From the NCBI GenBank assembly GCA_014885115.2, contig WKLE02000557.1, forward strand, positions 4,450 through 68,449: a stretch of DNA of 64,000 nucleotides, in the 5' to 3' direction. Positions 15,427 to 63,597 of this stretch are shown piece after piece. The translations under genes were made by a program, and so were the position numbers. Source of the DNA: Asterionellopsis glacialis (lineage: Eukaryota > Bacillariophyta > Plagiogrammaphyceae > Rhaphoneidales > Asterionellopsidaceae). Below the pieces are notes generated by a model that saw only the letters and a program-made list of their open reading frames with translations, made no database searches and had not been told where the DNA came from. Each line of letters opens with the position of its first letter. Positions within the stretch are counted from its first letter, which is position 1.

Positions 15427-15437
15427 GTACCAGGTAC
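15427..15437. repeat. GTACCAGGTAC motif copy, 420 bp upstream of the RING/PHD gene
   Basis: Exact match to the dispersed odd palindrome GTACCWGGTAC described in the findings. Confidence 0.6.
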
Positions 15438-15918
15438 AACGGGGGGTGACCAAGGCAGATATTATGACATCATTGTTTTCGTTTCCGCTGGAACCTTAAA
15501 AAAAACTCAAGAGAAGACACCCTTCTTTTTTTCTTCTGAAAGGCATATCCAAGTACCGGTATGGACTCGTCACGATACCTTAGCATTCTGCTGCAAGAAA
15601 GAACACTCTACCAGGTATGATACTTGCTACAATGGTGGGAGACACGCAAATTTAAAAATTCTATTTTGTTGTTAACCTTTTTTCTAAATTACTACATCAT
15701 ACACCTACACTTCTTTTCGCCATTGTTTCATGTTTGCTGACACGAGAATTACTGTTATTTGCTATTGCATTACGGCAATGAAAAGGAAAAAGAGGAAATG
15801 CTGTGCTATATATTTATACTACAAAACCGAGAAAAGTGACAAAAAAAGAAGAAAAAAATTGAAAGCTGTTAATGATACAATCATAAATCACAACAAACAG
15901 CATGGGGGAGGTGTAATC

Positions 15919-15940
15919 TGCTGCTGCTGCAGCAGCAGCA
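15919..15940. repeat. 22-bp perfect CTG/CAG palindrome
   Basis: Eleven bases of TGC repeats ending in TG are followed by their exact reverse complement, centred on CTGCAG. It could form a hairpin or simply be a trinucleotide repeat that inverts. Confidence 0.6.
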
Positions 15941-17312
15941 TTCTCAGAACTCGAAAACTGTCAGAACATTCCATTTTGAATTACATGCAGATTGGTGCTA
16001 CAATACAAGTATTCCCTCCTAGATATCAGCCATCACATTAAACCCTGAAAGTGATTGTACGAAAGGTCCAATGATAAAAAAAGTAAGTAAATACATTGAA
16101 CACTCAAAATCTATGGCACTCTCATGAAAGATGAAATCCAAAAAGTGAAACGCGGATCATGCCCGGGCGGGGCAGCAAGGACAAACAAAATCCTTGACCT
16201 GGCAGTTTACTTAAATTATCATCCTCATCCTCTACCAGGTAGGACTAGTCCGAGTCCTCGAAGTATGACCTATTACGTAGGCCCTAGAGCAGAGGTGCGA
16301 GTAGTCTAAAGGCAGTCCTACGAAACCGTGCGTCCAATTGTCCTGTTAAGTTGTTTTCCAGTGTTTTCCCCAGCTGCCAGGTCGTAAAAAAATCCACTAC
16401 ATCACTGTACGAGTACAGGTACACCGACTTGTAAGTCATTTTCCATGTTTAAGTGTATGGAATAGTGATGTGGCCAAAGGGAGTCACTACTTGGTACTTA
16501 TCGAACGTATCTTGATCAATTTCCATATCCAATTCTGTGGAATGCTAATGTGACAAATGACACCTCTTCGAAGCTATTTTGATCAAGGAAATAGTATTGA
16601 GAGGGTTAAAAGACACTTTTATAAAACACTACAGGCAGTAAACTAACTAATACAGTACCCTTGCAGTGCTAATATTTATTGTTCTGTAAATCAAAAATGA
16701 AAAAAAATTCCCTTCTACTGTACAGTACCTCTTTACTCTTTAACCTTTTAATTTTTGACACCCATTACCTCTAGGACCTATTACTCCTTGTATCGCGTGA
16801 ATCAAACTGAAATCAATCAACAACCCCATTCATATTGAACTTGAAGATATTCGTACTTTATACATTATATTGAAAGCTATCGGGGTAATACCACGTACAG
16901 TCAGTGTCCATACTAAAGGTCGTGGAATGTATCGTGACACACATCATGCTATGTTACATTACAGATCCTAAGCAGCCAGAATTCATCTACAATGCTTCCT
17001 TTTTTGGAAATTTTAGTACATGGACCAATCTATTTTTTAATACGATTGTCGACGAATGCAAAACAGCTTTTAGGGTCAAGTCTTTCCCAATGATCCGTCG
17101 TTGGTCTGTATCATCGAATCATTCTCCTTTGTTATATCGCCCCTTAGACTTCAACCAAGAAATTATGATACCGAAAATAAAAAAATGCATTAATTAGTGA
17201 ACTCATTTATTGTTTTTGTTACCTCCAAGAACCAAAATTGCAGTTCTATATTTTTCGTGAAAATCTACTTTTGTAACATAACTGAACCCAGGATCACCCG
17301 TCAAAAACAAAA

Positions 17313-17645
17313 ATGTTTTCTGATTACCAACAAGAACCCCGAAGCTTGCTCTCCATCTTAATATCTACGGATGCACCATTCCTCCCAACTGACGAAAATG
17401 AGAATGAGATTGACCTACCATTTGCAGAGGAGCAATCTCACATCGATATTCCATTGGAGTCAATTCTGACTACAGTTCTTGACATATTAAATGCCGATCA
17501 CCAAGAAGGAGAATTAGCCGAAACGCCGAGATCAATTGCCAAAAGTTCTGAAAAGATTCCTAATACGAAGGGTTCGAATGCGGAATCTCCTCAACTTAGT
17601 ACCACACCAAAAAAAGCAGAAGCAAAGCAAGCTTTGGGAGCTTGA
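17313..17645 (+). CDS. Hypothetical 110-residue protein
   Basis: An ATG in AAAATGT context opens a 110-residue frame beginning MFSDYQQEPRSLLSILIST. It is acidic in the middle (DENENEIDLPFAEE) and rich in Ser, Lys and Ala at the end. No domain, signal peptide or membrane segment is visible. It lies alone between the RING/PHD and PPR genes, just before a (TTTA)7 tract. The composition is protein-like but the length alone is weak evidence. It may be a short real gene or a chance frame. Confidence 0.35.
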   Translation: MFSDYQQEPRSLLSILISTDAPFLPTDENENEIDLPFAEEQSHIDIPLESILTTVLDILNADHQEGELAETPRSIAKSSEKIPNTKGSNAESPQLSTTPKKAEAKQALGA

Positions 17646-18196
17646 TTTCCACACTTGATAGAAGTCTCCACATTCATAATGTCGTTTATTTATTTATTTA
17701 TTTATTTATTTATTAATTAGAACTATTTTACAGCTGATTTCTGTACCTGCTATAAAGTATGAATACCTATGCCTCTTAGTATTTTGAATTTCACTTGATT
17801 CTACTTGTCTTGGTTAGACTACTGTACACGAATTTTGCGACTTTGAAAGAATCTAGACGTAAAGCACCCAAGCCAAAGTTTGCTTCCATGCTTTAAGCAT
17901 TGACTTTGTGTCAATGGATGGTACTCTTCTTGGTAGGCAGTTCGCTATTCATAGGAGGGGCTAAACACACCTATTTAGTATCTGAAAAAGATACACTTTT
18001 TGAATCTCTGTTAACAAGTAAGTCCGAAAAACCGTTTCGTGGACCGACAAAAAATCCACAACCCATTCAAAATGATAGAGCTACCAAGATCAATGAATCA
18101 TTTCGAGTTGATCCATCCACATATCTATATGTGTTTATACAAAAATCGAAAGTATTTCAAAATTTGAATTATTATTGGTCTAGTAATAGCGATAAT
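17646..18196. other. Intergenic region with one doubtful ORF
   Basis: This holds a (TTTA)7 microsatellite and an ATG frame at 17918-18247 that starts with a hydrophobic stretch (MVLFLVGSSLFIGG). That frame overlaps the 3' end of the PPR gene on the other strand and shows no homology, so it is not called as a gene. Confidence 0.4.
17685..17712. repeat. (TTTA)7 microsatellite
   Basis: Seven uninterrupted TTTA units. Confidence 0.9.
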
Positions 18197-20806
18197 TCAC
18201 CACGAACTTGCAATTTTCAGTGCTTTTTGTGTAGCTCTATCTCTTGACATAAAGCCCTCATACAAACATTCAAGAGAGGCAATAGATTTACCCGTATCAC
18301 GCATAAGTGCTTGTTTCTCTAAGTCACCAGTACTATAAAAGGCATTTTCCAACAAAACAACTGCACGTAACACTAGGAGCATAGTGCGTTTATTTTCGTG
18401 TAACTTATTTCCATCAATCAAATCAGCTCCCATCTTTTCATTACCCTCCAGAATGTCTTCGTACATGGAGACAACTTTCTCATACATGCGAAGTCTTTGG
18501 AGTTTGTCTTTTTGAGGATCAAATGACGCGGCATGGCGTATATATGCAGATACCAAAGCACCGAATGACTCAACACTAGGTTTCCATCTGACAGGTTGTT
18601 TGTGTTCGTCATTTGATCCACGATAGTCCAATGCAGACTCCCATATTGATTCTGCAACATCACTTCTTCGAGCTTTCCCAGCCGTTCTGATCATTTCCCT
18701 CCAAGACCTGTCATTTGGATCTAAGTCATTAGATCTTATTTGATCCATGACATCCTGTGCACGATTAATGTCCCCAGCACGTGCACAAGCACGGAGAAGA
18801 GCATTGTAACATGCTATATCGGGTTTGGCTCCTGCTGCAGTCATTTCTTGATAAATCAAGAATACCTTAAACAAAAGAGTTGTAGACTCTTCTTCATCTC
18901 CCTTGGAAATCCACTTCGTCGTGTGCTTCTGGGGTACTTCTTTAGATGACGAGCCAACATGTGCTGTTGTCCGTCTTGGTGTTCCTCTCATAAGGCTTTT
19001 CATGAGCTCCGTGTAGACTTTGATTGCTTTGTCCTCACCGTAGTTAGTAGTCAAACCAATTTCAGTGCTGTTCGCTCTTTTCATATCTTGTTCGTCAATG
19101 GTTGTTGTGGCTTTAGTTTTTTGTTCACGCAAACGCCGTTCATATTGCCACATTTTCTTGTTTTCAAGTTCTACCAATTTACCTGCACTTGTCATCAAGC
19201 TAGTGTACATGAATTCACTTGGTGCAATACCTTGATATTCCATGTATTGAAGAACATCCAAAGTGTCAGATACCTTACCATTTCGTAACAAACAATCTGT
19301 CAAACATCCACATGTAATTGTATTTGGTTCAACACCAAAGTTGGCCATTGAATTGAATAATTTAACAGCTGTTTCAATCCTACCTGCTTTGCCACATGCA
19401 TCAATTGCTGCTGTCCATGCACCAACCTCGTTGGATAGTGAATATTGTTGCTCCTCCAGTTGTTGTGTCCCACTTTTAAGTTCCGCTTCTTCCTTTTGTT
19501 TTTGTCGCAGCATGATAAGTAATCCATTGATGGCTAAATCACTTCGTTTGCACCGTCCACAAACATCAATAAGAGCACAATATGTCTTCCCATTTGGTCG
19601 GACGTGTTTACCATGCATTTCTCTAAGCAACGAAAACGCCAATGTAGGATCTTTGGCGCCATAACGATTATCATTTTTCCTTGCTACAGTTGCAATCAGA
19701 GTTGTATACGTGCGTGCATCTGGTGTTATTCCATTTTGTAACAAAAGTTCTTTAGCTTCCAATGCCTTGTTCAAGTCTTGTGCCTTATGGCATGCATCAA
19801 GGAAAGTATTGTATGTAACGAGATTGGGCGTCGTTGCAGGTACATCATCGCCATTCCCCGTTAACATTTGGCATAAAAGATCTTCTGCTTTCCGTACATC
19901 TGCAAGTTTCGCATAGGCATTCATAAGAATATTGGCAGCCTTTACATCAGGAACAATAATAACTTCAGATGTTATACCTGCTATCGGAGTAACTTTTGGC
20001 TTTTGTAGACGAAACCCGGCTTGGTTTTTCATGAGTAACCATAATCGTACAGCAACTAAAGGCTTGCCAGCACTCACTGCTCTAGACATGAGTGTTGAAT
20101 ATGTGACTAGTGTAGGTGCGGGAACTAACCAAAGCGTGTTGTACTTTTCTTGTGCAAATTGAGCAAGATATGCAGCCTTTCTCATTTTGGCAAATAATCG
20201 CAATGCTCGCAAAAGTTCACCTCTATCCCCAAATGTGGCCAAGGCTGCATTGCATTCACGTACTGAAGGGAATAACATCGCAATTGATCTGGTATAGTCA
20301 GACCTCATTTGATCAAGACCAACATTAATTCGTTCCTCCACATCTATAGCAGCTTGCCATCGTGCCTCAAAACTATTTTTGTCGTCTTTACCACTACTGC
20401 TTGACTTAATCTTGTTACTGGACCGTCGTTGTTTTCGATTATTTTGGTTTTTTATTCTTCTATACTGATTTTTGTTATTACTATTGCCACTTGTAACATG
20501 CAAATTTGTTTTGGGGGCTGATGTGCCTTGACCTGCTGTATCACGAGCTGGATCTGTCGCTACGAAAAGAACAAAATCTCTTCCACTAATTAGCCGATGC
20601 TGTGGTTTTTGTTCTGAAATGCCGTGGAAAATAAATGATGACACTGGATTTTCAGGATAATGTTTTAGCCCTTGTAAATGGTTGAAATTTGATATTCCAC
20701 AAGGTATTTTTAGTGTACTCCTTGTGAGAAAACCCTGACAAGATGAAACAGAGCCGACAAAGACGAACGCAATAATCATGTTTCTTCTAGAACAACACTC
20801 AATCAT
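18197..20806 (-). CDS. Pentatricopeptide-repeat (PPR) protein, probably plastid-targeted
   Basis: Single exon. About nine PPR-like helical repeats are visible, such as LVTYNTFLDACHKAQDLNKA, ARTYTTLIATVARK, KTYCALIDVCGRCKRSD and IACYNALLRACARAGDINRA. PPR proteins bind organelle RNA and act in its processing or translation. The start at 20806 (MIECCSRRNMIIAFVFVG) gives 869 residues. It places a hydrophobic signal peptide at the N-terminus, followed by SSCQ-GF, an ASAF-like motif for import into the secondary plastid. The next upstream in-frame ATG is 20878 (893 residues); the frame continues to a GTG at 21166. A long basic Asn/Lys/Arg linker precedes the first repeat. The exact RNA target cannot be told from the sequence. 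Confidence 0.85.
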   Translation of the reverse strand: MIECCSRRNMIIAFVFVGSVSSCQGFLTRSTLKIPCGISNFNHLQGLKHYPENPVSSFIFHGISEQKPQHRLISGRDFVLFVATDPARDTAGQGTSAPKTNLHVTSGNSNNKNQYRRIKNQNNRKQRRSSNKIKSSSSGKDDKNSFEARWQAAIDVEERINVGLDQMRSDYTRSIAMLFPSVRECNAALATFGDRGELLRALRLFAKMRKAAYLAQFAQEKYNTLWLVPAPTLVTYSTLMSRAVSAGKPLVAVRLWLLMKNQAGFRLQKPKVTPIAGITSEVIIVPDVKAANILMNAYAKLADVRKAEDLLCQMLTGNGDDVPATTPNLVTYNTFLDACHKAQDLNKALEAKELLLQNGITPDARTYTTLIATVARKNDNRYGAKDPTLAFSLLREMHGKHVRPNGKTYCALIDVCGRCKRSDLAINGLLIMLRQKQKEEAELKSGTQQLEEQQYSLSNEVGAWTAAIDACGKAGRIETAVKLFNSMANFGVEPNTITCGCLTDCLLRNGKVSDTLDVLQYMEYQGIAPSEFMYTSLMTSAGKLVELENKKMWQYERRLREQKTKATTTIDEQDMKRANSTEIGLTTNYGEDKAIKVYTELMKSLMRGTPRRTTAHVGSSSKEVPQKHTTKWISKGDEEESTTLLFKVFLIYQEMTAAGAKPDIACYNALLRACARAGDINRAQDVMDQIRSNDLDPNDRSWREMIRTAGKARRSDVAESIWESALDYRGSNDEHKQPVRWKPSVESFGALVSAYIRHAASFDPQKDKLQRLRMYEKVVSMYEDILEGNEKMGADLIDGNKLHENKRTMLLVLRAVVLLENAFYSTGDLEKQALMRDTGKSIASLECLYEGFMSRDRATQKALKIASSW

Positions 20807-21239
20807 ATTTGACCAATGCTTTCGCCTGTGATGACCATTTTCTTGGTGCGGTTGTGAACTAACTTTCGCTCTCTTCATATCATCTGCGTTATAACTGAGA
20901 TTCGCCCAAAATTCTTTCTCGTGTACCGTTATGCGTGGGTTTCGTCTATCTTGCGAATTGTTCTGTTTTTTTTTTCTTTCATGATGGCAATCAGAAAACT
21001 GGGTCAATGGCCAGAACCTTGCTGTCGTGGTCGGTCGTGCGTCTGTTGCGTCGCTCAAGCTCAAATTATGGCTCCAGGACCGATGAAGAAACTCCAGGGA
21101 GTTGTCTGAAAATCGAAATTTACGTGGAATTACGCAGATCAACCGGAGTCTTGGCCGTACAGGCACTGTACTACTGTTTATTCTTTACTAAACCTTGTAC
21201 CAAGGTACCGGTTGTTCTTTATCTGAGTTACCAGGTACT

Positions 21240-21250
21240 GTACCAGGTAC
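21240..21250. repeat. GTACCAGGTAC motif copy, upstream of the PPR gene
   Basis: Exact copy, 434 bp from the chosen PPR start; a partial inverse copy follows at 21260. Confidence 0.6.
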
Positions 21251-21308
21251 GGTAGTGAGGTACCTGGTAGCTTACACTAAAAAGATTTAGGAAAAACTGG
21301 AAATACAG

Positions 21309-21319
21309 GTACCAGGTAC
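21309..21319. repeat. GTACCAGGTAC motif copy, upstream of the PPR gene
   Basis: Exact copy, about 500 bp from the chosen PPR start. Confidence 0.6.
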
Positions 21320-22079: not shown

Positions 22080-22331
22080 TTAAGAACAGCAAGTCTGAAA
22101 CATTGGCATAGGTATTGCTGGCATGTTGTCGTCGAAATGAGGAGAACCATCTTCATTCAGAAGATCTGCATACTGAAGAAGCGTTGCCGTACCAGCCTGC
22201 TCCTGTAATAAGCTCCTTCCCTCACTTATCTCGCCTTTACCTTGTTCCTGCAGATGATCTACTTGTAGTTGTCTAAGGAACGCCGATATATCATCTTGTC
22301 CTAGTGATAATTTGTCGCCGTCGCCCCTCAT
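22080..22331 (-). CDS. Probable C-terminal part of the DUF6824 protein, in a shifted frame
   Basis: An 83-residue open frame (MRGDGDKLSLGQDDISAFLR...) begins at an ATG overlapping the stop of the DUF6824 ORF by the four bases ATGA. Its acidic, Gln/Leu-rich composition resembles the C-terminal tails of transcription-factor-like proteins. A one-base shift within about 25 nt upstream of the stop would fuse both frames, and no intron consensus spans the junction. It is either the real tail of a gene broken by a frameshift or sequencing error, or a chance frame. Confidence 0.4.
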   Translation of the reverse strand: MRGDGDKLSLGQDDISAFLRQLQVDHLQEQGKGEISEGRSLLQEQAGTATLLQYADLLNEDGSPHFDDNMPAIPMPMFQTCCS

Positions 22332-22837
22332 TCTGACGGGGTCTTTAACTGTATCACAATATCACAAATAGTATCTTCTAAGGAATCCTCTTCTTCCGCG
22401 CAATGCTGGTTCTGAATATCCGAGGACAATAGGTCACAAAAGATTTGTTGTTGACGGAGTAGAAGTTCTTCTTGAGGCTGCAGAATGTTAGATGCAGAAA
22501 AATTTCTTCTGCAGTTCATTGTCTCTCGCAAAGCATGGCTAACCTTGGCAAATGCGCGTTTACCCGGAACTTCGATGAAGTCTTTGGTAGAGGTATCAAG
22601 CTGGAGAAAACGACCATCCATTGATTTCATGATGTTCATCACTTTATGTACAATATCTGCTTTTTCTCGTCTTGAGGTCACTAGATATTCTTCACGATGG
22701 AGATCCACAATCATTCGGAATCGTTTATTACCGTTTCGATCCATACACCCCTTGCCACGTCCAAAGAGAATGTCGTTATCTGTAGGTTCGACGACGGCTT
22801 CAGATTTTTCGCCAGAATACTGTGTGTCGGTGTTCAT
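22328..22837 (-). CDS. DUF6824-domain protein
   Basis: A 169-residue protein starting at the ATG at 22837. The domain at about residues 18-110 reads DNDILFGRGKGCMDRNGNKR, then VDLHREEY, GRFLQLD and KVSHALRET. This is the order seen in DUF6824: a TDxDVLFGRG opening, a GNxRFR step, a Lys-rich helix, a GRFL strand and an A..KVSQALRE end. The family is common in diatoms and thought to be nuclear or regulatory; its biochemical role is not established. This copy is more diverged from the two copies at 40 and 44 kb than they are from each other. A possible C-terminal extension lies in another frame just downstream. Confidence 0.75.
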   Translation of the reverse strand: MNTDTQYSGEKSEAVVEPTDNDILFGRGKGCMDRNGNKRFRMIVDLHREEYLVTSRREKADIVHKVMNIMKSMDGRFLQLDTSTKDFIEVPGKRAFAKVSHALRETMNCRRNFSASNILQPQEELLLRQQQIFCDLLSSDIQNQHCAEEEDSLEDTICDIVIQLKTPSE

Positions 22838-23646
22838 GCTTGAATTTTTTTCCCGAAAAAATTTTGTTGCTGATGATGATGTCGTTTTGTAACGTATTTG
22901 AAATCAATCCAGGTGACAAAACTGCAAAAAAGAGCACCTGTTGTCTTCGATATTAAGGAGGATATTTTTCTTATGACATCTTCATGGCGGACAAGGCTTG
23001 AACCACTGTCGAGAGAATTTGAACATCAAAATCGCTTCAAAAACATTCTTTTTTACTTCCTAATCGCGGTTAGTTAGTAGTCACGACGGAAGTTAGCAGT
23101 TTTGGAATACTATTATATTTGTGTGTGACGTTTCATTGATTTTATATAAGTACTTGTATGCTATTTACAGTACCTTATGTACGGTATTTTTCAATATGTT
23201 GGTACCTGGTACTACAGTTTACGTTGCTGCTGGTACTTTCTGCTAATTTGGGTACCAGCATGTACTGGTACTGTATTTCAACCATCCTACGTAGTCCTAC
23301 ATACCAGGTATATTGTACTTTGATCAAAACCTTGCTGTGTCCTAGAGAGTACGGGGACTACGAGTACTGTAGTCTAATGCGAATTCTTGTAACATATACA
23401 TCACGACCAAACCAAGACTGGAAAAAAAACGGTGATCGTAATAGCGTGAGAACTGAACGTCCAGCACAGGAGCCAGAAAATCCCAGCCTAGGGTCGAATC
23501 GGCCAGTGGAACAAGAACCCAAAGGAGAGGTCGTGCGCGTTCAACTTGCGTGCGAGTGAAAGGAATACGAAGATACGCTTCGCAAATTCTGACACCAGCC
23601 GTTGACTGCTCTCTTTAGCAGGAGCAAGAAAGAAGAAATTAAGACG
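22838..23646. other. Intergenic region before the retroelement
   Basis: No gene is seen. It holds an exact GTACCTGGTAC at 23202 and a cluster of related GTAC-rich words at 23160-23310. The left end of the retroelement probably lies between about 23400 and 23640, but no terminal repeat was identified. Confidence 0.4.
23202..23212. repeat. GTACCTGGTAC motif copy, 365 bp upstream of a DUF6824 gene
   Basis: Exact copy in the inverse reading of the palindrome, among other GTAC words. Confidence 0.6.
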
Positions 23647-25965
23647 ATGAGCAACGACGCCACCGTTCCGGTTCCACAACTCAACGACCCTCCTGCTGAC
23701 CCTGCGGATGATACGATCGGAGAGGATAGAGGAGGAAACCCTCCTCTAGTCACCACTCCACCAGGTCGGCGAGCAACGAGAGTCGAAATGGGATCAAGGG
23801 AACCCGGAGTCCCCGCTGGTGCCAGAGATACTGCTCCTACCAGAGGGGGCGTCACTGCTGCCCAACCTTTTGCACTCCCGTTTGAGGCAAAGGAGGGCAC
23901 CCTTACATTAGAGATGTTATCCTCAACTGCGGGTCCAACAAATGCCGAGATCACGGAATCCGTGACCAAAGCATTCAAAGTTATAGAGGATGCACTCAAT
24001 CCTGAAGATGCCCTAATGGAATTACTTGCTGCGGACGAGTTAAGTGCATTTTTGACAGTGCTACCTGTGTCACAGTTAGTGACAGTGGGATACTGCATAC
24101 GCCAATTCCAAGTGGGTTTTGGAGTTCCAAACGAGTTTAATGGAAAGATATTTGCGCGGCTTGGGGATGTCGATGAGGGCCAGCTGCCTCAATTCTTACT
24201 GCCCCCTGGTGATTCCATACTGGGCACTGCCAAAATCTTGTTTGGTGTTGATACTTATATTAGGGCAAAGGAAGCAGATTTGGAAGCTGCATTTGGTGCT
24301 AATTCTGACCTTCTCTTAGCCCCTTACGTAGTTTGCATTCAGGCGAATACTCATGCTGCTGATACAGTTAAACTCTGCAAGCTGGTGTACATGCTGCTAG
24401 AATGGGCCCTGTATTTTTTAGAACTGCTTCTGCCCTATAAGGCTCTGCAGGTTGTAAAGTGGCTTGTGGGCTCACTGAAAAATGAACAACACTACCAGGA
24501 AGTAGGTTCATTAGTGGAATGGGCCCGGATCGCTTGTACAAAAGCAGCAGGGGCGGGTCCATCACGCTGTGATAGCAAGATGATGGTCAATTGGACTGGA
24601 GTAATACCAAATCAAAAATTGACAAGATGGGGAGCCAAGGTTATCCATAATGTGTTAGGTAGCAATGCCCCTCTGACTTCCCCTGATGCAGGGGGAGGAG
24701 TCTTGGATGCCCAAGTGGCGTATGGACAAGCTCTGGAGACAGTGAAGGCAGTCTCTGCTCGACTGACTGAATCCAAGATGAAGAAATCCTACTCTGACTC
24801 AGAGAAGTTACACATCCGAGCAGCGTGTAGTTTGGGCAAAGGGGGTGACCCCCCAGTATTACTGTCAGCAATTGCTTAGGATGGGCGCACTAGTGAGGCA
24901 GTGGAACGACAACTACGCCGTAGACTGAAAGTGTTGCCTGATGCAGACAGCCCAGTGAGAATCTTCGTATCCCCGAGTTTGGTAAAGGACGTGAAGGCTC
25001 TAAACTTTGGGCATGATGGAGAAGCCGAATTTGACAAATGTCAAAGAGGGCTCTCACCGTTTGCTGTACCCTTTACAGCACTGGCCACTTAACGGGTCCA
25101 GCGTAAGAAGAATGATGCAATAAAGCAAGCCACAAGCATCACTCCGAGTGACATGCTGGAAGTAGCTAGTGACGTAAAGGTGATTCCTCTGCAGGATTAC
25201 ACCGGTCTGATGCGAATACTGGCAAACTACCACAAGTTGCTCCGGGAGGTCGTAGGATAGGAGTGTCACCATTAAAAGGAGATTGTTGAGTTGCAGCGAG
25301 CATTGAGAGTGAAGGTGGATGTCTATGACAACATCAGTCCTCACAAAATAATACACATCTTGTGGGCGGTGCTGCATGACTCCAGACAATTCTTCACGGA
25401 AGCAGTGCAGTGGGAGTTAGGGCAACCGCTACCAAGGTCACGGTTAACCTACACCACCACATTCTTACAGAATGGGACAATCCTGGAGACGGAACACTGC
25501 CCTGTGGAGAGATTCTACCCTGTGGCAGAGCTGCCTCCACCCCCACCAGCCCCTTACGGGAGAGGAGGGGTGAGAGGTGGGCACATTGACAACTTATTTC
25601 AGCAGGCCCCCTATGGAGGATCAGGAGGAGCAACAGAAAGAAACAAAGTCTTCAAAGCAAGCATTCACCCTCTCATTGAGAAGGTAACAGGACCTCTGAA
25701 GAACGTGCACCCTCAGCTAACCATTGGTGTGTCAATGAGCGCAATGGACCCACCAATAAAATATTCCGACCTGAGAATAGGAACAAAGGGGACTTGTCTC
25801 GAGATGAATTTGTTTGGAGTATGCTGCAATAACTGATGCATGTATCAGCACCTGGAAGCCAAGCCCACCCATTCGAGGGCCTAGGCCATAGCCAATACTG
25901 TACAGCAGGCTGCAGAAGCATATGAAAGAAAAATATCAATGAAGAGGAAGCGAGGGTCATCATGA
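23647..25965 (+). pseudogene. Retroelement gag-like gene with in-frame stops
   Basis: The frame runs from the ATG at 23647 to the TGA at 25963-25965 without a frameshift. It is broken by stops at 24877-24879, 25090-25092, 25258-25260, about 25273, 25834-25836 and one near 25888. Near the end is a zinc-knuckle-like pattern with the stop inside it (GTCLEMNLFGVCCNN, stop, CMYQH). The N-terminus is Pro- and Thr-rich. Several of the stops (TAA, TAG, TGA) are one C-to-T change from CAA, CAG or CGA. The gag assignment rests on position and the Cys/His pattern; no capsid fold is recognised from the sequence alone. Confidence 0.6.
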
Positions 25966-28125
25966 CTGGTGGTCCCCCGCACGAAGAACAAAACGCTCCC
26001 AAAACGGGAGCAGTCGGACCTAACGGTGGAAAGGGGCAAACTGTTAGAGCTGTCCCAGTTATTCCTAGGGGTTCGGCAACATCCTTCAAGGGGAGGACCG
26101 AAGCCTAGGTCCAAAAAGGACCAGGCAGACCAAAAGGAGTTTCATGATAACGCCCGTGGACTTGCCAGCAGAAAAAGTGAGAGGTAAGGCACATTGGCCT
26201 CCAAAAGGGAAAAGCCTAATGCGACTGTTGGCCCTTGCAGACTTACATCCTTTCTCAGAGATGCTACATGAGTGGGAACAAGGAGTTCCGGTTGATTTTG
26301 GTAAGCCTTGGTCTAGGGAGACCATTGAGGCAGCTCTTGCTAAGGGGGTGCATGTTAGTGCCCTTACCAAAGAGAGCATTGACTTAATCCACGAGGATAT
26401 TGCTTACCAAGAAAAAGCCAGGTTTTCATCGGTGGTACTGTGGGACGACATCAAGGACCACCTGCCAGTAAACTTCAAATTGTCCCTTCTTGCAGTAGTC
26501 CCTCAAGAAGATAGGAGGGGTCGGATGATTCTCAACTTGTCATTTCCAGTTTATAAATGATGCAAGCCACGGAACAAAAAGGAAAGGAAAAACCAAAAGC
26601 AGGTGGTGATACAGGAGTCCGTAAATGGCACCACCAAAAAGCTCGCCCCCCAGATTCTGGTAAAGCTACTTGGACAGGTCTTGCCCTGCATATTCCAATA
26701 CATGGATGCGGTACCAGCAGAGGCAGACATTCATTTTAGCAAGATCAATCTGTTGGATGGGTTTTGGAGGATGATTGTTGATGATAAAGAAAAATGGAAC
26801 TTCTGTTACGTACTACCACAACACGACGACCAAGCCCCACTAAAGATTGTAGTCCCATCTGCGCTTCAAATGGGATGGACGGAAAGCCCACCATACTTCT
26901 CTGCAACTACCAAAACATGCCAAGATATCATTGATGTGGTGTTGAAAGAAGGAAGGGATCTGTCACCTCATCCCATGGAACAATTCTTGCTACCAACAAG
27001 ACCGGCAAAGAGACACGAATTGAAGCCAGGGTTGCAGTCGGTGTCAAACGTTTCTGTTGACAATTTCTGTCTAGCAGCAGTGGAAACTGAAGATGACCAA
27101 GGGTTTTACTATGCTATGCACGGGCAGCCCTACATTCAATTCATGACATTTTTTCACCTCCTTTGGTACTCGAGCATGAGGGAGGCAAGAATAGTGTGTA
27201 AGAAAAGAAACTGCAACGTGGAGATGCCCGGTGGGACCCCAAGAAAGAAATACTTGGTTTCTTATGGAATGGTCAAGCCAAAACGGCTCAGTTACCGGCA
27301 GCAAAGGTGGATAAAATCATAAAGGAACTCAGGAGAGTCTTAAAGCAAAAGAAAGTGCGCAGACTGCAGTACCAAAAGATAGTAGGCAAACTACACCATG
27401 CGACAGGTATCCTCCCAGTGGCAAGGGGGTTGTACACACCAGTCAACCAAGCCCTCCGAGGGTAGCCCAAGGACATTGGGCTGGGGAAGACAAGCAAGGT
27501 CCGTGCAAATCTCTTAGACTTGGGAGTTCTCATGAAAGACCTTGCTGCACGCCCCACCCACGTCCGGGAGCTTGTCCCGGGGCAGCCGGATCTCATTGGT
27601 TACTGTGATGCATGTGCCACTGGAGCAGGAGGCGTCTGGTTCCAATCAGATAAGTCAATGAGACCAATTGTGTGGCGCATCCCCTTCTCTCCGGAGATAT
27701 CCAACCAGGTGGTCTCTGACACGAACCCAAAAGGGGCCATCACCAACTCTGATCTGGAACTAGCCGGAATTACCCTGCATTATCTGGCCTTAGAGAAGGC
27801 CATGAACATAAGACACCAATGTATAGGTATCCTGTGTGATAATAAGCCATCGGTCGCCTGGATAACCAAAATGGCTTCCAAGGCAGAATCTCTGATTTCT
27901 GGCAGATTGTTACGTGGCCTCTTCTTGCAGCAGAGGGTAACCTGAGCAGCTCCAATCATGGTTAACTATGTGCAGGGCAAAGAGAACCAAATGGCTGACT
28001 TTGTGTCTCGTTCGTACAACCAAGCTGTGTTTCCACACACTCATGATGACTCACGTTTTCTCGCCCGTTTCAATACAAAATTTCCATTTTTACAGAATTT
28101 GTCTTGGCGCTTTGTGCGCCCATGA
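25962..28125 (+). pseudogene. Retroelement pol: reverse transcriptase and RNase H, frameshifted
   Basis: The first ATG overlaps the gag stop as ATGA (25962-25965). RT begins in another frame near 26144 and continues through a TGA at 26558-26560 to about 27200. It shows LSLLAVVPQEDRRGRMILNL, FSKINLLDGFWRM and VPSALQMGWTESPPYF. The expected YVDD catalytic box reads VSVDNF (27050-27067), so the second Asp is Asn. A frameshift between about 27160 and 27228 leads into the connection and RNase H part, with a TAG at 27463-27465. RNase H keeps YCDACATGAGGVWF, NSDLELAG and CDNKPSVAW, and so its acidic residues. The tail (ENQMADFVSRSY) is also typical of this algal family. A TGA at 27943-27945 interrupts it. 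Confidence 0.75.
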
Positions 28126-28204
28126 CATCGCTCATATTCTCAACCTTGCTAGGACAGCGATTGCCACTGCAACGGTGGATGAAGAACAGCGGGCCTGTCA
28201 CTAG

Positions 28205-32732: not shown

Positions 32733-32736
32733 CGTC

Positions 32737-34269: not shown

Positions 34270-34928
34270 CTCATGTTCTGGTTCTTGGGGTGTAGGTGGG
34301 TGTCTGAATTGTTGCCGTTTCTAACTAGTCGTGAGTGTTGTTGGCCGATATTGTGTTCCCTCACAAACAACACAATGAACCGTGATGTGTATGTGTGTTT
34401 TGTGGAATCATTTCCTTGTCGGAGGCCAGCGAGACCTTGCGGATTGGATCGAAAACGAGGGGTTTATCAAAGAGCTATTTCTGTAGTCTAGACTACGTCC
34501 ATATTAGTAATATTCTAACACATGCCGATTTCGTACACTGGTTCAACAGAACTGAGTCTTGATTGAATGACTCGACTAAAACCACTACTTCCATAGAGAT
34601 CTCGACCTGTCTTGCATGCAGTGACGCTGGCGAGCGTTATAAAAATTCATGGAGTTGGTTGGCGCCGATCGAGATCGATACATGCACGTAGAGTAGAGTA
34701 CCGTACACACAGTACCAGGTACAGGTTATCTACCATACTTCGTAGCTAGCGAGGCAAGCTTGAGCTTGAAAGCAATGCAGACCGACAAGCTACTGTCGGT
34801 AGAAGACAACAAAGACAAGTAAAAGTTGTGAACGGTCACTGTGTGTGCGACCCTGCTTCGATTGATACTCCTAGTCCTATATTGTTAGAGTTGTCAGTCA
34901 CCACTGCAACAGCATAAAGGGAGTCACG
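34270..34928. other. Divergent promoter region between the plastid-type protein and dynamitin
   Basis: No ORF is supported. It holds an exact GTACCAGGTAC at 34712 about 207 bp before the dynamitin ATG. Confidence 0.5.
34712..34722. repeat. GTACCAGGTAC motif copy between divergent genes
   Basis: Exact copy, 207 bp upstream of dynamitin and 443 bp from the divergent plastid-type gene. Confidence 0.6.
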
Positions 34929-38082: not shown

Positions 38083-39295
38083 ACTTATTTTGTGTTACCG
38101 AGTCAAATTTTAATTTTTTTGTTAGTTGCGTCGTTGAATTGACGAAAGCTCCGCAAGATCCCTACCGATACACGACCAACCTCGAGTCTGTGTTCTGTGC
38201 TCTAGCTTTTGATTTCTTTTTTAAAAATATGTGTGGTTGCTCTTTGAGCTTGATACACACCGCAGGACCAATCTAAATAGTTTACCGTTGCAGGTAGGAC
38301 TGGCAGTAGGACTATTTTGGAATGATGGTACTAATTACCCTCTCTCTCTAGAGGGCCTTTGGTGTCTGTCTACCTGTACTCTACCAGGTACTGTAGAGTC
38401 TCTAGAGAGGAGATGTAGAGAGAGTATTCAAAAAGAGTGGTTTATAGAAACCGGGGCAGCTTGAAGCTTGTGAGAGTTGGGTACTCAGTAGCAGCATCCC
38501 ATTCGTTGGCATAAGATACACAGTAAGTAGGAGCTGGGCGGTTACAATTTTTTAGAACTGCAAGTATAATATATTATTTTTTTATTTATAATATCATTAT
38601 AATAGCTGTAATATAATATAATATACAAGGTAGTTACGCCCTATTATCCTCAACAAACCTTATGATGGCGAGTGTCACATCTTGCTACTGACATCTTGAA
38701 GAATCGACACACATCAATATTCAATTTAGATTCAGCATCCTATTTACATTATACTGTATTATTTTTAAAAAAATAGTAAAGGTTCCTCTACTACTGTAGA
38801 CTGGTCCTACATCATGTACCAGGTACCTGTACCTGTACCGGGTATGAACCGAATGTACCAGTTCACATTCATGCAAACCATCTAGGACGTAGTAATATAC
38901 ATAGGACACTTTATGGGGTCCTACCGTACTTTAGCTGTTTCGTTGTGAAGGATGACCTCTCGGATCCTCGATCGTGCCACTGCTTGCTCCAGCCTCTGCA
39001 CTCCCTAGATGGTTACGGTACTCTACATAACGCTTCACAGATTTGATGTCTTCTTTTTCATCATCATATTTTTTTTTCTGTTCTTCGGTTCAAAGTTCGG
39101 GTTGCAGACAGTATCGCAACTCACAACACCACAAGTACCCAACAATTAATTGCACTTATTTGCAAACAAAAAGTCTTAATCTACTCATGTTTAGTAGCTG
39201 GTACAAAGCTCTGGCTAAAGAAAATACAGCACGACGCTAGAGAAAATGGTAAGTTCATCAATTTGATATTCAGTGCTTTGTGGGCGTTGTACGGT
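38083..39295. other. Divergent intergenic region between kinase and F-box genes
   Basis: No gene is supported. Exact GTACCAGGTAC at 38816 and partial at 38382; the latter lies in a dense block of CTCTAGAG words (38340-38410) that can fold back. An AT-rich stretch lies at 38560-38630. Confidence 0.5.
38816..38826. repeat. GTACCAGGTAC motif copy between divergent genes
   Basis: Exact copy, 470 bp before the F-box gene and 734 bp before the kinase; followed directly by further GTACC words. Confidence 0.6.
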
Positions 39296-41282: not shown

Positions 41283-41293
41283 GTACCAGGTAC
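41283..41293. repeat. GTACCAGGTAC motif copy, 126 bp upstream of a DUF6824 gene
   Basis: Exact copy and the closest to a start codon of all copies. Confidence 0.6.
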
Positions 41294-44309: not shown

Positions 44310-44507
44310 TGTATTAATTTTTGTGGTTGATAAGTTTATATCTTGTCCAGTCGATTTGTTTAGTGTTCTCGATGAGACAAAGGACAAAGCACCAGTGCAA
44401 TACCTTCTTTATACGATTAGAATGAGATAAATGTATCGAGGCAGTCACAGCACAAATATTGGCAAACTGGGGGTGTTCTTCAAACTCACTGGACGACCTA
44501 CGCCTTT

Positions 44508-44529: not shown

Positions 44530-45621
44530 TGTCTAGGAGTGCTTCTTCGTAGATTCTTAGTACCAGGTGTTCAACTGTGACTCGTACCTGGTATGGGGAA
44601 AAGTGCATTCGAAGTCACAGCTTCATCAGAAGTTCTGACCGGTATTCGTTCATGAATTATAGGCCTTTTTTTAATAGGTAGATTATGATTATATAAATAC
44701 TTACAGGAACCTCATATAAGGGTGAGAAGAAACAATATTATGTTTGTACATAGTAATGACCGTGACCAAATAAATTCATATTCAAGTAATGGAGAGGACC
44801 GTGGAGAAATTGTCCCTTAAATATTAATCGCATACGTATGCAAGTACACAAGATTCCATAGAAGTCCGGGAAAACATTTCTCCGCTCTTCAAATAAAATA
44901 GATTCCCCGAAGAATGTCAGAACGGTATTTCACATTTGGCAATTGTTCCTTGATTGTTCTCCAAAAATTTTCACTGTGCTCGTTCTTGTTTGTGATGGTT
45001 GTGTTCCTTTTCCGTTAAATAGGATAATTATGGGCGTATGTATTCTTTCACGACTAGATCTTCTAGCTTTTTTCATTTCTGTTTGAGCTGCTCAGAAATC
45101 TAAGATTATTATTGCCATTTGAAGTTGTATTTGAAGTGCAGGTTATTATAAAAGGATAAATAATGTTCAATATCATTTCAATCTTCTTATAATCAGGATA
45201 ATTCTTCGGATTTTCTACGAAATAATTCGGATTTTCAATGACATACGTACTGTATGATTACCACACAAAAACAATTCTTTAAAACAAATTTGGGCTTTCT
45301 AATTTAACTAAAGACGACCTATAATAGCTGTAAAAAGGAAAAGAAAATACCTGTACCCAAATTTAGGCTTCCTAATTCTGTAAAAAGAAGAATGTAATAC
45401 AGAACTGCTCCTTGATTGGCGGTGAATGTCTCTTGGAGCTGGAAAACAAGAAATGAATGGCCGATAGAAGATAATAAGCAGCACACATACAGACAGACAG
45501 TAACAGTAGTCCGTTGCCAAGGTTTCGGAACGCTTCTTCCGGTGATTAACCTTATTCAAAAAGGGGTATCTCCGGTGATTTGGTACTGGAAGAAGGCATT
45601 ATGACAATCTCTTTCAATGAG

Positions 45622-47271: not shown

Positions 47272-47282
47272 GTACCTGGTAC
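47272..47282. repeat. GTACCTGGTAC motif copy near the mariner remnant
   Basis: Exact copy inside a block of GTACC and CTAGTAC words, 315 bp before the transposase remnant. It is the only exact copy not placed upstream of a host gene. Confidence 0.6.
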
Positions 47283-50123: not shown

Positions 50124-52165
50124 TGAAATAGCTTTGTATGAGATTTAAAATGGTAAGACAACACAACATTTCACATTTTCTTGTTGTTTTGAAGTAGCTT
50201 GCTGAATTGTACTTAAAAAATGCATGTTTCTATTAATTTCCCTAATAATCTACCATTGTCCTGTCTTTATTTGTTTTAATTTGAAATTATTATGGCAGAA
50301 TTGAAGCCTGCAATGGAAGGGAGGTGTACTACGGTAGTGCCAGTTACTTCCAATCATTTTTTTTTTGGTAGAAGAATGGTGGACAAACAACAATCAATCA
50401 GAGTCGCCTATTTGTGACAATTTATGTCATGCTGTGGTTTACAGGTTGTTCTGTACTTTTTATTATTTAAAGTTGATTGTTGTGTGTGAATTATCAAGGG
50501 GGGGCTTGATAAAAACGATCTTATTAGTGAGTAGAGTACTAAGTTTTTTGGATTTTAATTGCTTTGTCATGCAATAATCTACACTTTAACACAACAACCA
50601 ATCAGTATGATATCACACCATATATTACTTTTCCTTGTTTTTATTTGGTTGATTGTGTTTTTTAAGAAACAAATAAGAGTGTTCAGAGGAAATATTGGAA
50701 CCATTGTTGACTACAAAAAAAGTACCAAAAAATGTTTTTAGATCCAATTTTACATGTTGACAACAAGCAACCTTCTAGATCATATTTTTCAAAAAATCAT
50801 AATTAATCTGACCATCTGAAACATAATTTTAATATTAGGATGATAGTTGTAATGATCTCCTTGTCATCATTTGTAAGCTACTGCTTCATCTTGTCATGTT
50901 ATTTTTCAACAAGACTGCAACTTCAAAAATAATATTTTTTGTTCTTTGTTCATCTTCGTCATTTGGGGTGTCAATGCGCACCTGAAATGAGTGCACACTT
51001 GCTCTACTCAATTTTCTATGTCAAATGGACTACCAATATCTCCAGTGATGCATCACCAGAAAATTCTTGTGTGACCAGGAATGTACCAGGTTCCTTTCAA
51101 ATAGTAAGAAAGACAACTTGTACTACTCTCTAGGACTTTTCATTATATGGGTTGTCATATTAGCTAGTATGCTGTATGATTGGTTTCATGATGGACCACC
51201 TTTTGTGTCAAATCAGTTTCTTTCTACCAGAAACCCATTCAAATGCACACACAATTTTTTGTATAATCAGCAGCAGACACATCATCAACTCCTAAGTAAT
51301 GTAACTTTACTTAACAATGAACATAGAATCCTAGGTATCATCGGGGGGCTTGCATTCCTGTAACACTTCTTTTCTATGGAATATTTTTAGAAATAGCAGC
51401 GTAGGACTGTTCAGCAGGAAAAAGGAAGAATAACTCAAATCGTTTTCAACATTGCCGATATTCTGTACTTGAATATGAGACTACATTGTAAATTTATTTT
51501 TCGTTGAAGACGTCCCTTTACCGGAACCCCGCTGGGTCGACACATTACCAGGTACGTACTGCACGTTGTCATCCCTTTATTTCCGGTCCTTTTGACGGGG
51601 AAGACAGAAAGGACCATAATATCGCACCAGATAAAGTATTGTTGTTCAATATATGATTACACGTAATCATTGTTAAATACCAATAATTTTAGTAGAGACT
51701 AATTATAAAATAGTTGAATAAATACTCATGCATACAAAAGTCGAGTTAATCAGAGAATAATAGTAGTTTGAACTTGAAAGAATTCCACGTATGTTTATTA
51801 CCAGCAGCTGCAGTATTTTTTGGTGATACTGTTCAGGTAAGTCTTTCATGCATACTGATAAATATTATTATCTGTTTGAAAAAAGTAGCGTTTTTAGGAT
51901 TAAAAAATGCAAGACAAATATCATTTATTATAACGAAAAATTAATTAAAAAGGATGGTACGACGAGCGACTGATTCAGCGCGATTTTAAGAAATTGCTAT
52001 AGGTCCTACATCAGCCCGACACAAATACGAACCCACCCAAAAAAAAAGGAATCTAGCTAGACCTATCGCAATTCATTCCTCTATTTGCAACATACGTTAC
52101 AGCAAGGAGCAAAAAGTTTCAATCTTGAAATCGTCAAAGCATTCCTCAAAAGAAAATTAGCAACC
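50124..52165. other. Intergenic region after the mariner remnant
   Basis: AT-rich. Short ORFs (50365, 50559, 51067) have no recognisable domains. A near-match TACCAGGTAC at 51546 lies about 610 bp upstream of the DHHC gene. Probably includes the lost 3' part of the transposon and the DHHC promoter. Confidence 0.45.
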
Positions 52166-53427: not shown

Positions 53428-53495
53428 TGTTTAGAAACCCATGGATGTATCCGTATCCGAATACTTTCTTTCATTCGCGAATGTTACTTGAATGC

Positions 53496-57864: not shown

Positions 57865-58266
57865 ACTTTGTAACAAAACCCATGGACATTTTTTATTTTA
57901 CTTCCTCTTGTTGCCTTTGGCACTATTTTTGTTTGGTTTGCCCCTTTAGTGACTTCTTATTATTATTTGAACTATTATACATCTTGGATGGTGCACCTTT
58001 TCATTGGAGGCATTTTTCACCGTAGACATGCACGTACCAGGTACTAGTAGTACAAATCAGCAGTAGACTTTGTACCAGTTGCATAAACCTTGCTTATCCC
58101 TCCATGTTGCAACTATCGCGGGATGTCCAACACATGAGATTGATATTTCACAACCATCAGTGCCGAGCATTCAACAAAGGCACATTTGTACCGACCTTGG
58201 ATCCATAAGTCTCTTTCACCTGAAAGAAATTATAGGAAAGTTAGACAATAACAGGCTTTCGACAAA
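57865..58266. other. Intergenic region, promoter of the small secreted protein
   Basis: No other gene. One exact GTACCAGGTAC at 58034. Confidence 0.5.
58034..58044. repeat. GTACCAGGTAC motif copy, 223 bp upstream of the secreted-protein gene
   Basis: Exact copy followed by CTAGTAGTAC. Confidence 0.6.
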
Positions 58267-61201: not shown

Positions 61202-62473
61202 TTATCGCTTTCCTTGTAATTTTGAGGTATTCGAATTCACAGATGCCCCTGTCAAAGGAGCAGCAGCAACTCGATGCGTCGAAAGCTGGCCCGCGGCAGG
61301 CGCAAGCGGGTTCGAAGCAACTAATGCTTGGCCCAGGACGTTGCGGATGTGGGTTGAGCTGAGAGCACTACCAGCTAAGAAACCAGCTGCAAACTGAGCG
61401 TTGGCCGCGGCTTGGGCTTGCAACGCTTGTTGTGCAGCAACAGCAGCTTGTGGGATGACGGGTGCTGCAATTGGAAAGGCGAGCTTATCGCCTGTATTGC
61501 CCTCAACTTGTGTAACCTGTGATGCAGGTTTCTCCAGAGGCAATGAAGAAGGTTTTCCTGATAGGGACTGTGCTTGCTGTTGCGTCGTTGTCGTCGTTAG
61601 TTGCATACGCATATGGCTAACGCCAGAGCTTGCATTAGTATTCGTGTTGAATTCCAATGCAGGGGGGGCAGCTGACTGCGCTACTTGGGGGATAAATGAC
61701 CCAGCGTAGACTGGCATTCGAGCCTTGGGACCTCCAACAAGAGTGCATCTGAGCATGATGGAGTCGTCATCAGAGGTCTGCTTTTCCGGTACAGGGTGCT
61801 CTTCACTTATCTTATAAAAGTCTGGTTCATGCTCGGTATCAGCTGCAGCTTTCTCTGCAACTCCGGGACGTCGCATTTCCTTGCAAAGATGGGGAAGACC
61901 TCTAAGGAACAGTTCATGGTAGTAAGAGTTACGGTCACGCCCTTGAGTAACACGTCGGAAGCCCCAGCCATTCGCTTGCCTAATGAACGACGAAAATTTG
62001 GAATGCTCAAAATATGTTGGGATCACACGAATTTCGAATTCTCGGGGCTTGAGCACACGCCAAGATCGACCGTGAGGCATCCATGCAACAACATCAGCAA
62101 GGTCGGGACGACAAAGAATTGCATGCATTTTCGCAGGAAAGTTGGGTACCCTACCGGGAGGGGTCAGCGGTGTCAGGGGATCATGATCTGGGACCTCGGA
62201 ATGATCCTTGTAATAAAAATAAGGGGCGGGTTGAAGCGCCTTCTCAAGTGCAGCTGGTGGAGCGTGCATCGGAACATTACCCACCACAGGCCCAAACACA
62301 GGAGTTTGAGCAGGTACCAACGGTGTAGGAGGAGCCAGTCTTTGCATCTTCGCCGGCTTGCTACTTTCAGTCTCAATAGAACTTTCAGGTGTGCGCTTGA
62401 ATCCATTGGTGCTGAGAGCTGCAACTGCAGAAGCTGCCGCTTTTTCTTCAAGACTATGACCAGCGTTCATCAT
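61202..62473 (-). CDS. Heat-shock transcription factor (HSF)
   Basis: Single exon, 423 residues from the ATG at 62473 (a second Met follows). The HSF DNA-binding domain lies at about 107-201: VPNFPAKMHAILCRP, VAWMPHGRSWRVLKPREFEI, FEHSKFSSFIRQANGWGFRR, then DRNSYYHELFLRGLPHLCKE. These are the winged helix-turn-helix core residues. HSFs bind arrays of nGAAn to activate stress genes; diatoms have large HSF families. The N-terminus is Pro/Ala-rich. The C-terminus has Gln/Ala-rich stretches (TTTTQQQAQSL, AVAAQQALQAQAAANAQF), typical activation or flexible regions. No obvious leucine-zipper trimerisation region could be picked out. Confidence 0.92.
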   Translation of the reverse strand: MMNAGHSLEEKAAASAVAALSTNGFKRTPESSIETESSKPAKMQRLAPPTPLVPAQTPVFGPVVGNVPMHAPPAALEKALQPAPYFYYKDHSEVPDHDPLTPLTPPGRVPNFPAKMHAILCRPDLADVVAWMPHGRSWRVLKPREFEIRVIPTYFEHSKFSSFIRQANGWGFRRVTQGRDRNSYYHELFLRGLPHLCKEMRRPGVAEKAAADTEHEPDFYKISEEHPVPEKQTSDDDSIMLRCTLVGGPKARMPVYAGSFIPQVAQSAAPPALEFNTNTNASSGVSHMRMQLTTTTTQQQAQSLSGKPSSLPLEKPASQVTQVEGNTGDKLAFPIAAPVIPQAAVAAQQALQAQAAANAQFAAGFLAGSALSSTHIRNVLGQALVASNPLAPAAGQLSTHRVAAAPLTGASVNSNTSKLQGKR

Positions 62474-62630
62474 GGGAGCTCGGTTCGGGTTAGTCTCGGG
62501 ATATATATCTTGTACACTCTCTGAACGGGTGAAAACATTTGCGGAAAAATTAAAAAAGAGAAAGCAGAGAACAAATACGTCAGTTGCGAATAGATTATAT
62601 AAGTGCTTGAAGAAAATACTATAAGTACAA

Positions 62631-62690
62631 TTGCCGTCATCATTTCGTCACAAGAAAACAGTAGCACCGTTGTTTCGTGGCTTTCGTTCG
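62631..62690. repeat. 60-bp direct repeat, copy A, upstream of HSF
   Basis: Shares CGTCAT, TTTCGTCACA, GAAAACAGT and GTTGTTTCGTGGCTTTCGTT with copy B 87 bp further. Confidence 0.75.
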
Positions 62691-62717
62691 ATCCGCGCGA
62701 TCCAAAAAGAATAATAA

Positions 62718-62777
62718 TTGTCGTCATCGTTTCGTCACATGAAAACAGTGGCCTCGTTGTTTCGTGGCTTTCGTTCG
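62718..62777. repeat. 60-bp direct repeat, copy B, upstream of HSF
   Basis: The second copy, with a handful of substitutions. Confidence 0.75.
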
Positions 62778-63072
62778 GTACCACGAGCCATGCCTCATGG
62801 CGTCCACCGTTCGGAAGAAAATGCGGCGTCTTAAAACCACCAATATCTGCACCTTGCGTATAAATCCCTCTTATTCACTAAAACACTTCGTGCATGATCC
62901 ATTTCAGAACTCACTTACAGAGAAGAATAGAGTTGCAACCAAGGTCGCAACTGCCAACGGCAAGAGCGTTCGTTCCTTTGATGATAGCAGCCGACAAAGT
63001 GCTATTTCGCTGTTGTTCGTTGTCGATTCCCGTTCAAGAGAGCTTCACGTACTTTTTCAATATGGAACGCAC

Positions 63073-63083
63073 GTACCAGGTAC
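63073..63083. repeat. GTACCAGGTAC motif copy, about 600 bp upstream of HSF
   Basis: Exact copy overlapping an inverse partial copy (GTACCTGGTA at 63080). Confidence 0.6.
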
Positions 63084-63156
63084 CTGGTAAATCCCTGCTG
63101 CATAGCCATTCCTTGACCAGTTCCTTCACCGTATGTAACCTTGTCTAGAAATCGAC

Positions 63157-63167
63157 GTACCTGGTAC
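63157..63167. repeat. GTACCTGGTAC motif copy, about 684 bp upstream of HSF
   Basis: Exact inverse copy. Confidence 0.6.
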
Positions 63168-63586
63168 ATGTAAATGGTAATTTCGCCATATTGTGTACCT
63201 TACATACTTACTGGTACTCGCAACAACTTACCAGGACTTTGAGTAAAATCTACACAGATTCTCTGCTGACTGTACATCGTTATATATTACATTTTACAAG
63301 GGGCAAAGTATTTTAGAATTTCAATATATCATAAACTTATCCATTAAATAATAAAAGCTCCGTACCATATTTCTGAGAATATGTTTTTGATTAGGTAAAT
63401 CAAGGTCAAGTAGATATGCTGCTGACGCTGCTTTGCGAATAAGAGACGTCACAATCACATTCCTTCACCTTATTCGCATTCTTGGTTGGACGGAAAAGAA
63501 TTCTGATTTTATTTCAGGCCCGATGTGTCAGTTTCCTGGTAGGTCCTAGTTGGTATTTATTAGGTCCAGCATTAGTCTAGAGTACA

Positions 63587-63597
63587 GTACCAGGTAC
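63587..63597. repeat. GTACCAGGTAC motif copy, about 1.1 kb upstream of HSF
   Basis: Exact copy following AGTACA. Confidence 0.6.

Follow-up and report, generated by a model that had tools for sequence, protein, structure and literature searches.

A 64,000-nt stretch of the Asterionellopsis glacialis genome (GCA_014885115.2, contig WKLE02000557.1, positions 4,450 to 68,449; hereafter the window) carries a dispersed 11-bp palindrome, GTACCWGGTAC (W = A or T), between genes that include RING/PHD, PPR, DUF6824, dynamitin and HSF members. A first-pass annotation had reported 12 exact copies, and all of them were found at the coordinates given. With at most one mismatch allowed, the window contained 21 matches, compared with a mean of 0.39 (maximum 3) in 100 dinucleotide shuffles. 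The partial copies reported earlier at 21260 and 44584 were placed correctly, and those reported at 38382 and 51546 were one base off, as the 11-mers begin at 38381 and 51545. Five one-mismatch copies (21228, 39194, 41862, 51083 and 63080) were additional to that list. The 9-bp core TACCWGGTA was found 22 times, including four copies with both outer bases altered. The core sites are listed below, with no strand assigned:

15427..15437, exact A-centred site, 418 bp from the start side of the RING/PHD segment 12698-15013(-)
15609..15617, 9-bp core, both outer bases altered, in the divergent gap shared with the 15427 site
16233..16241, 9-bp core, both outer bases altered, in the divergent gap shared with the 15427 site
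21228..21238, core site, one outer base altered, in the cluster upstream of the PPR gene 18200-21184(-)
21240..21250, exact A-centred site, in the PPR-gene upstream cluster
21260..21270, core site, one outer base altered, in the PPR-gene upstream cluster
21309..21319, exact A-centred site, in the PPR-gene upstream cluster
23202..23212, exact T-centred site, between divergent genes, DUF6824 22331-22837(-) and 23647-24876(+)
23302..23310, 9-bp core, both outer bases altered, in the divergent gap shared with the 23202 site
34712..34722, exact A-centred site, between divergent genes, 33238-34269(-) and dynamitin 34929-35720(+)
38381..38391, core site, one outer base altered, in a divergent gap
38816..38826, exact A-centred site, in the divergent gap shared with 38381, upstream of 39296-39997(+)
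41283..41293, exact A-centred site, 130 bp upstream of the DUF6824 gene 40294-41157(-)
44584..44594, core site, one outer base altered, ~180 bp past the start side of the DUF6824 frame 43620-44408(-)
47272..47282, exact T-centred site, in a wide divergent gap, nearest called segments 2-3 kb away
51545..51555, core site, one outer base altered, in a convergent gap (the sample described below has three convergent clusters, of which this is one)
58034..58044, exact A-centred site, between convergent genes, the sole exception among the 12
63073..63083, exact A-centred site, with a second core overlapping it at a 7-bp offset, upstream of the HSF gene 61205-62647(-)
63080..63090, overlapping core, centre T, one outer mismatch, 7 bp past 63073
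63157..63167, exact T-centred site, upstream of the HSF gene
63587..63597, exact A-centred site, upstream of the HSF gene
63705..63713, 9-bp core, both outer bases altered, in the gap upstream of the HSF gene

No exact copy lies inside any coding segment called in this analysis, as had been observed before. Eleven of the 12 are intergenic and lie towards the start of one or more called gene segments, which agrees with the earlier description of upstream positions; the copy at 58034, between two 3′ ends, departs from it. The first-pass annotation gave distances of 126-1114 bp for these copies; the called segments closest to 47272 are 2-3 kb from it. The window is ~2.5 times denser in exact copies than the genome mean (12 in 64 kb versus 1 per 13.5 kb).

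The genome-wide count proposed in the first-pass annotation was run on the assembly (40.3 Mb, 1,503 contigs), with the same pattern read backwards as the control. The assembly contained 2,982 exact copies of GTACCWGGTAC versus 33 of the control, and 9,345 versus 857 when up to one mismatch was allowed. The 9-bp core was present in 8,772 copies (control 598), or ~1 core per 4.6 kb. The 11-mer with an S (G or C) centre reached only 144 copies (control 19), compared with the 2,982 of the W-centred form. When W-, S-, 0-, 2- and 3-spaced palindromes from all 4-base half-sites were ranked in the noncoding sample DNA, TACC-W came first, with 81 copies observed and 1.65 expected. Inverted TACC half-sites occurred 93 times at a spacing of 1 and 4-19 times at each other spacing from 0 to 15. 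Over-representation beyond base composition is a property of eukaryotic transcription-factor binding sites, and it was found here.

The mismatches of the 11-mer were unevenly distributed. Across the assembly, 4,199 sites (2,105 + 2,094) lacked one outer base, and by subtraction 1,591 lacked both. The eight inner positions together accounted for ~2,020 mismatched sites by subtraction, or ~250 per position, compared with ~2,100 for each outer position. The two outer positions vary independently: an outer G frequency of 0.58 predicts ~2,944 exact copies, close to the number observed. The element is one defined site, with a half-site spacing of 1 bp, an A/T centre, strict inner bases and an optional outer G/C. 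Decay of copies would strike every position alike; the concentration of mismatches at the outer bases is what a binding preference would look like. Such position-specific tolerance, together with a fixed half-site spacing, is also characteristic of transcription-factor sites.

The position of the element relative to genes was determined in a sample, ~230 kb for gap classes and 240.5 kb for gene-start distances, in which coding segments were called by hexamer score. The 81 core copies of the sample were distributed as 0 in coding DNA (~99 kb), 30 in tandem gaps, 36 in divergent gaps, 3 in convergent gaps and 12 at sequence ends. Only ~0.7 copies were expected in coding DNA, so the zero there reflects a lack of enrichment and not purging. 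By clusters, the tandem and divergent gaps (58.3 kb) contained 36 and the convergent gaps (21.0 kb) contained 3 (P = 0.006). Upstream of 65 called starts, the core density rose from 0.16/kb in the first 100 bp to 2.97/kb at 400-500 bp, stayed below 0.9/kb at 600-1000 bp and showed a lesser rise (1.21/kb) at 1000-1300 bp. Nearly half of the upstream site-gene pairings (36/74) fell at 300-600 bp, and 3/74 fell in the first 200 bp. Cluster-gene pairs, in which a cluster in a divergent gap was countable for both flanking genes, lay at 250-650 bp in 21 of 43 cases versus 12.1 under uniform placement within the spacers (permutation P = 0.0025). The S-centred control gave 3 sites upstream of the same 65 gene starts. 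An upstream density no higher than that of other intergenic DNA had been named in the first-pass annotation as refuting its proposal; the comparison was run on the sample and did not come out that way. A preference for promoter-side intergenic DNA with a distance peak, seen here over 230-240 kb with crude gene calls, is a further property of transcription-factor sites.

Several observations weigh against a promoter site. Ten of the sampled stretches (L005-L014) were selected for carrying sites. Three of the 39 clusters in gene-bounded gaps were convergent, and one of these is an exact window copy. The scarcity of clusters within 150 bp of the start was not significant (2 versus 5.4 expected, P = 0.07). 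The gene calls used a simple hexamer score, so first exons and 5′ untranslated regions could lack a call and the true transcription starts could lie elsewhere relative to the 300-600 bp peak. A functional theme among the downstream genes was looked for across the 65 called starts, and none was found.

Eleven stretches not selected for core sites (74.5 kb) contained 4 exact and 11 core copies; one of them, L027, had been picked near an HSF match and an S-centred site. In these stretches a core lay within 1.5 kb of 4 of the 21 gene starts, and 5 of the 10 distances were 309-380 bp. From the 4/21 starts, the element stands upstream of roughly a fifth of genes, and by extrapolation the number of genes with the element in the proximal promoter is probably in the thousands.

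The element could instead be an insulator, a chromatin signal or a replication-origin signal recognised by an architectural protein and not by a gene-specific transcription factor. Such a role would suit the very large number of sites, their clustering and the lack of a functional theme among neighbouring genes. The 300-600 bp peak and the scarcity in convergent gaps fit promoter use instead, and a core was found near only 4/21 unselected starts; we consider such a signal unlikely. An architectural factor acting at promoters is possible.

A signal at the RNA level, such as a splice-donor-like CAG|GTAC or a hairpin in the 5′ untranslated region, was also considered. CAG|GTA resembles a splice donor, which speaks for it. 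The sense-strand centre base relative to the nearest downstream gene was T in 32 cases and A in 29, which shows no strand preference. Few sites lie within 200 bp before start codons, and 0 clusters were found in 16 short same-strand intron-like gaps, a weak result because these total 2.0 kb. We rejected an RNA signal on the strand symmetry and see hardly any chance for it.

The 81 core copies formed 44 clusters, of which 28 were single-copy and the largest contained nine. The commonest spacing between neighbours was 7 bp, at which adjacent copies share GTAC. The whole assembly contained 540 such overlapping pairs, compared with 1,604 pairs across the 31 spacings from 9 to 39 (~52 each), which is an excess of ~ten times the average; the controls gave 0. 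The spacing listing was also inspected by eye for helical phasing of neighbouring sites, and no pattern was seen. A (CWGGTAC)n unit that slips in noncoding DNA, in the manner of a microsatellite, could produce overlaps of this kind, and some arrays do contain four units with a 7-bp period, for example three successive A-centred pairs at C72; in the local sample, 5 of the 9 pairs had equal centres. Against slippage, one centre base was A and the other T, in either order, in 31 of the first 50 listed pairs and the centres differed in 4/9 of the local sample, so plain copying of the 7-bp unit is not the main source of the overlaps. Most clusters are single copies (28/44), and convergent gaps are site-poor. 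Slippage as the main source was rejected on the unequal centres, and we give it a very slight probability.

Information content around the sites was low, at 0.85 bits for the outer base, 0.22 bits for the position three bases beyond it and <0.08 bits for all other offsets up to 15. Copies that overlap at 7 bp may account for the 0.22-bit position. The flanks of 42 copies, motif-masked and non-overlapping, had no mutual similarity at E 1e-3. A transposon origin is disfavoured because these flanks are unrelated; the first-pass annotation had held that copies belonging to one longer transposon family would refute its proposal, and no sequence shared beyond the motif was found among the 42 flanks. 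A related explanation is that a mobile element with GTAC as its target leaves GTAC-CWG-GTAC behind as a footprint when it excises, or that the copies are a tiny mobile repeat. The GTAC duplicated around a short core looks like a footprint, the shorter forms GTAC-CT/AG-GTAC and GTAC-N-GTAC are over-represented too, and copies overlap at 7 bp. The dissimilar flanks argue against it (an intact parent element was not searched for), as do the independence of the outer positions and the pile-up of mismatches at the outer G/C in place of an even spread. We rejected the footprint on the unrelated flanks and the mismatch profile and regard it as highly improbable.

Upstream sites were found at RING/PHD, PPR, DUF6824, dynamitin, CRAL-TRIO, bestrophin, acyltransferase, mitochondrial carrier and HSF genes, among others. 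Genes without a site include helicase, TFIIE, YL1, RPN7-like, L19e and transporter genes, plus three DUF6824 genes. A Pfam family was present for 12 of the 27 called starts with a site versus 25 of the 38 without, which is not clearly different. An initial impression that the site is missing from housekeeping genes was not established by this comparison. The 65 called starts omit the PPR gene, the window HSF gene and one DUF6824 gene.

DUF6824 proteins were frequent, with six among the frames scanned and two adjacent in sampled stretch L010 (L010:1108-1911, L010:3604-4350, L013:3372-4025; window 22331-22837, 40294-41157 and 43620-44408). The prominence of this family near the palindrome in the first-pass annotation did not extend beyond the window, as a core was found upstream of 3/3 scanned inside it and 0/3 scanned outside. 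A special link is not supported; 3/6 with a core upstream is no more than the 27/65 of all called starts. Two HSF genes had upstream sites, the window gene 61205-62647 with three exact sites and L014:6147-7472 with a site at 1,092 bp; two are too few to suggest autoregulation.

Elsewhere in the window, 24877-30557 is a 5.7-kb region between convergent called genes with weak coding segments only and no core site, and the G+C content is elevated (0.486) at 24-28 kb. Its proteins identify the source as a diatom. A cystathionine gamma-synthase-like protein had matches of 92% (transcriptome cluster), 85% (Attheya septentrionalis), 82% and 81% (names starting with Synedr- and Minuto-) and 81% (Seminavis robusta). 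A proteasome/PCI protein had a 90% match to a JGI contig and only ~35% to two matches with organism-like names.

Other short motifs were observed besides the element. A form one base shorter, GTACCTGTAC, had 1,669 copies on both strands genome-wide (823 + 846) versus 189 of the control (92 + 97), with an example at G000 C13 ~11701-11850 (L011 1701-1850). Its core, TACCTGTAC, was densest 400-600 bp upstream of gene starts, and the shorter form may represent a weaker site for the factor of the main element or for one related to it. The unspaced form of the main element, TACCGGTA, had 11 copies versus 1.2 expected in the noncoding sample DNA, where another odd palindrome with an A/T centre, TAGGWCCTA, had 13 copies versus 0.66 expected. 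A second palindrome of 8 bp, CTCTAGAG, was found in the window at 163, 29796, 38346, 38400 and 41991 (5 copies versus 0.56 expected). It was enriched in the sampled stretches too, with 8/17 upstream pairings within 300 bp of gene starts, and it was not scarce in convergent gaps.

Taken from sequence, the pattern indicates that (G)TACC-W-GGTA(C) is very probably the binding site of a symmetric-dimer DNA-binding protein in many proximal promoters. A sequence-specific protein would bind the element as a symmetric dimer, would be a transcription factor and, once bound, would alter the transcription of the neighbouring gene. The copies overlapping at 7 bp would give one dimer several registers or suit a higher oligomer. 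The first-pass annotation had offered a binding site, a chromatin or replication signal and a tiny mobile repeat. The binding site gained from the promoter-side position, the distance peak, the fixed dimer spacing and the tolerance pattern; the mobile repeat is disfavoured, and nothing specific supported a replication or chromatin role.

Leucine-zipper dimers form sites whose half-sites meet at one central base pair. We speculate that the factor may be of leucine-zipper type, as the geometry of the element resembles that of such dimers. Familiar bZIP half-sites have a TGAC, TTAC or ACGT core, and none of these is present in the element, whose half-site is GTACC. HSF is another speculative candidate family. 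It is a large one, with 64 matches to its DNA-binding domain in the assembly; the element contains no TTC or GAA of the HSF units nTTCn/nGAAn. The SBP and CP2 domains had no match in the assembly, a weak result because the control genomes gave none either. A bolder reading, which we hold to be doubtful, is a very large, hitherto undescribed regulon in this diatom lineage (thousands of sites, about a fifth of genes) under a lineage-specific dimeric factor, possibly of a new DNA-binding type, that would assemble on the 7-bp self-overlaps as a graded or cooperative promoter code.

Related sequences for a conservation test were also searched for. A search of the genome itself with the HSF promoter, the one promoter tried, matched only itself and gave no alternative haplotype. 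A pattern scan of IMG/VR returned 9 stretches, no more than chance by a rough estimate; eight of them contain no core beyond the matched two, and the ninth contains three cores. One run of an IMG/VR protein scan found no relative.

A description of the element was not found in the literature at the level of titles and abstract openings among the matches listed; the papers in which its letters occur look unrelated. Palindromic promoter elements are a known kind; the sequence, abundance and 7-bp overlap of this one appear to be undescribed in the material covered. Diatoms are major primary producers, and to our knowledge few of their promoter elements have been described. A strict promoter-side element with thousands of copies could serve as a pull-down bait for its factor (GTACCAGGTAC, compared with GTACCCGGTAC). 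It also lets the regulon be defined in one step and its sharing across diatoms be tested, and the 7-bp self-overlap is a specific, testable architectural rule.

Among the closest known systems are the odd-spaced leucine-zipper sites, namely TGASTCA of the bZIP proteins AP-1/GCN4 and CAATWATTG of plant HD-Zip I. Like the element, both have symmetric half-sites joined at one central base pair, and HD-Zip I shares the preference for A/T at the centre. Their half-site letters differ from GTACC, and we know of HD-Zip from the plant lineage only. The Grainyhead/CP2 site AACCGGTT and the STAT site TTCCNGGAA have a similar inverted layout and differ from the element in spacing or outer bases. The SBP/CRR1 copper-response sites have a GTAC core, which the element shares; GTAC alone was mildly enriched in tandem (1.5-fold) and divergent (1.7-fold) gaps. 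Diatom aureochrome targets have a TGACGT-type core. They provide an example of bZIP-regulated promoters in a diatom, with a core different from that of the element. Neither 'GGTAC' nor 'TGACGT' is present as text in an aureochrome paper (PMC10967249). In Phytophthora infestans, which is also a stramenopile, bZIPs bind diverse palindromes (GTAATTAC, GTTCGAAC and CATCGATG), and the HSF targets include the 1-nt-gapped inverted site TTCNGAA (PMC11267843). The main text of that paper, figure logos aside, does not contain 'TACC' or 'ACCTGGT', and none of the unusual bZIP and HSF palindromes seen there has a half-site matching GTACC (PMC11267843). Given that stramenopile bZIPs bind palindromes as unusual as these, bZIP-like binding to the element is conceivable by analogy.

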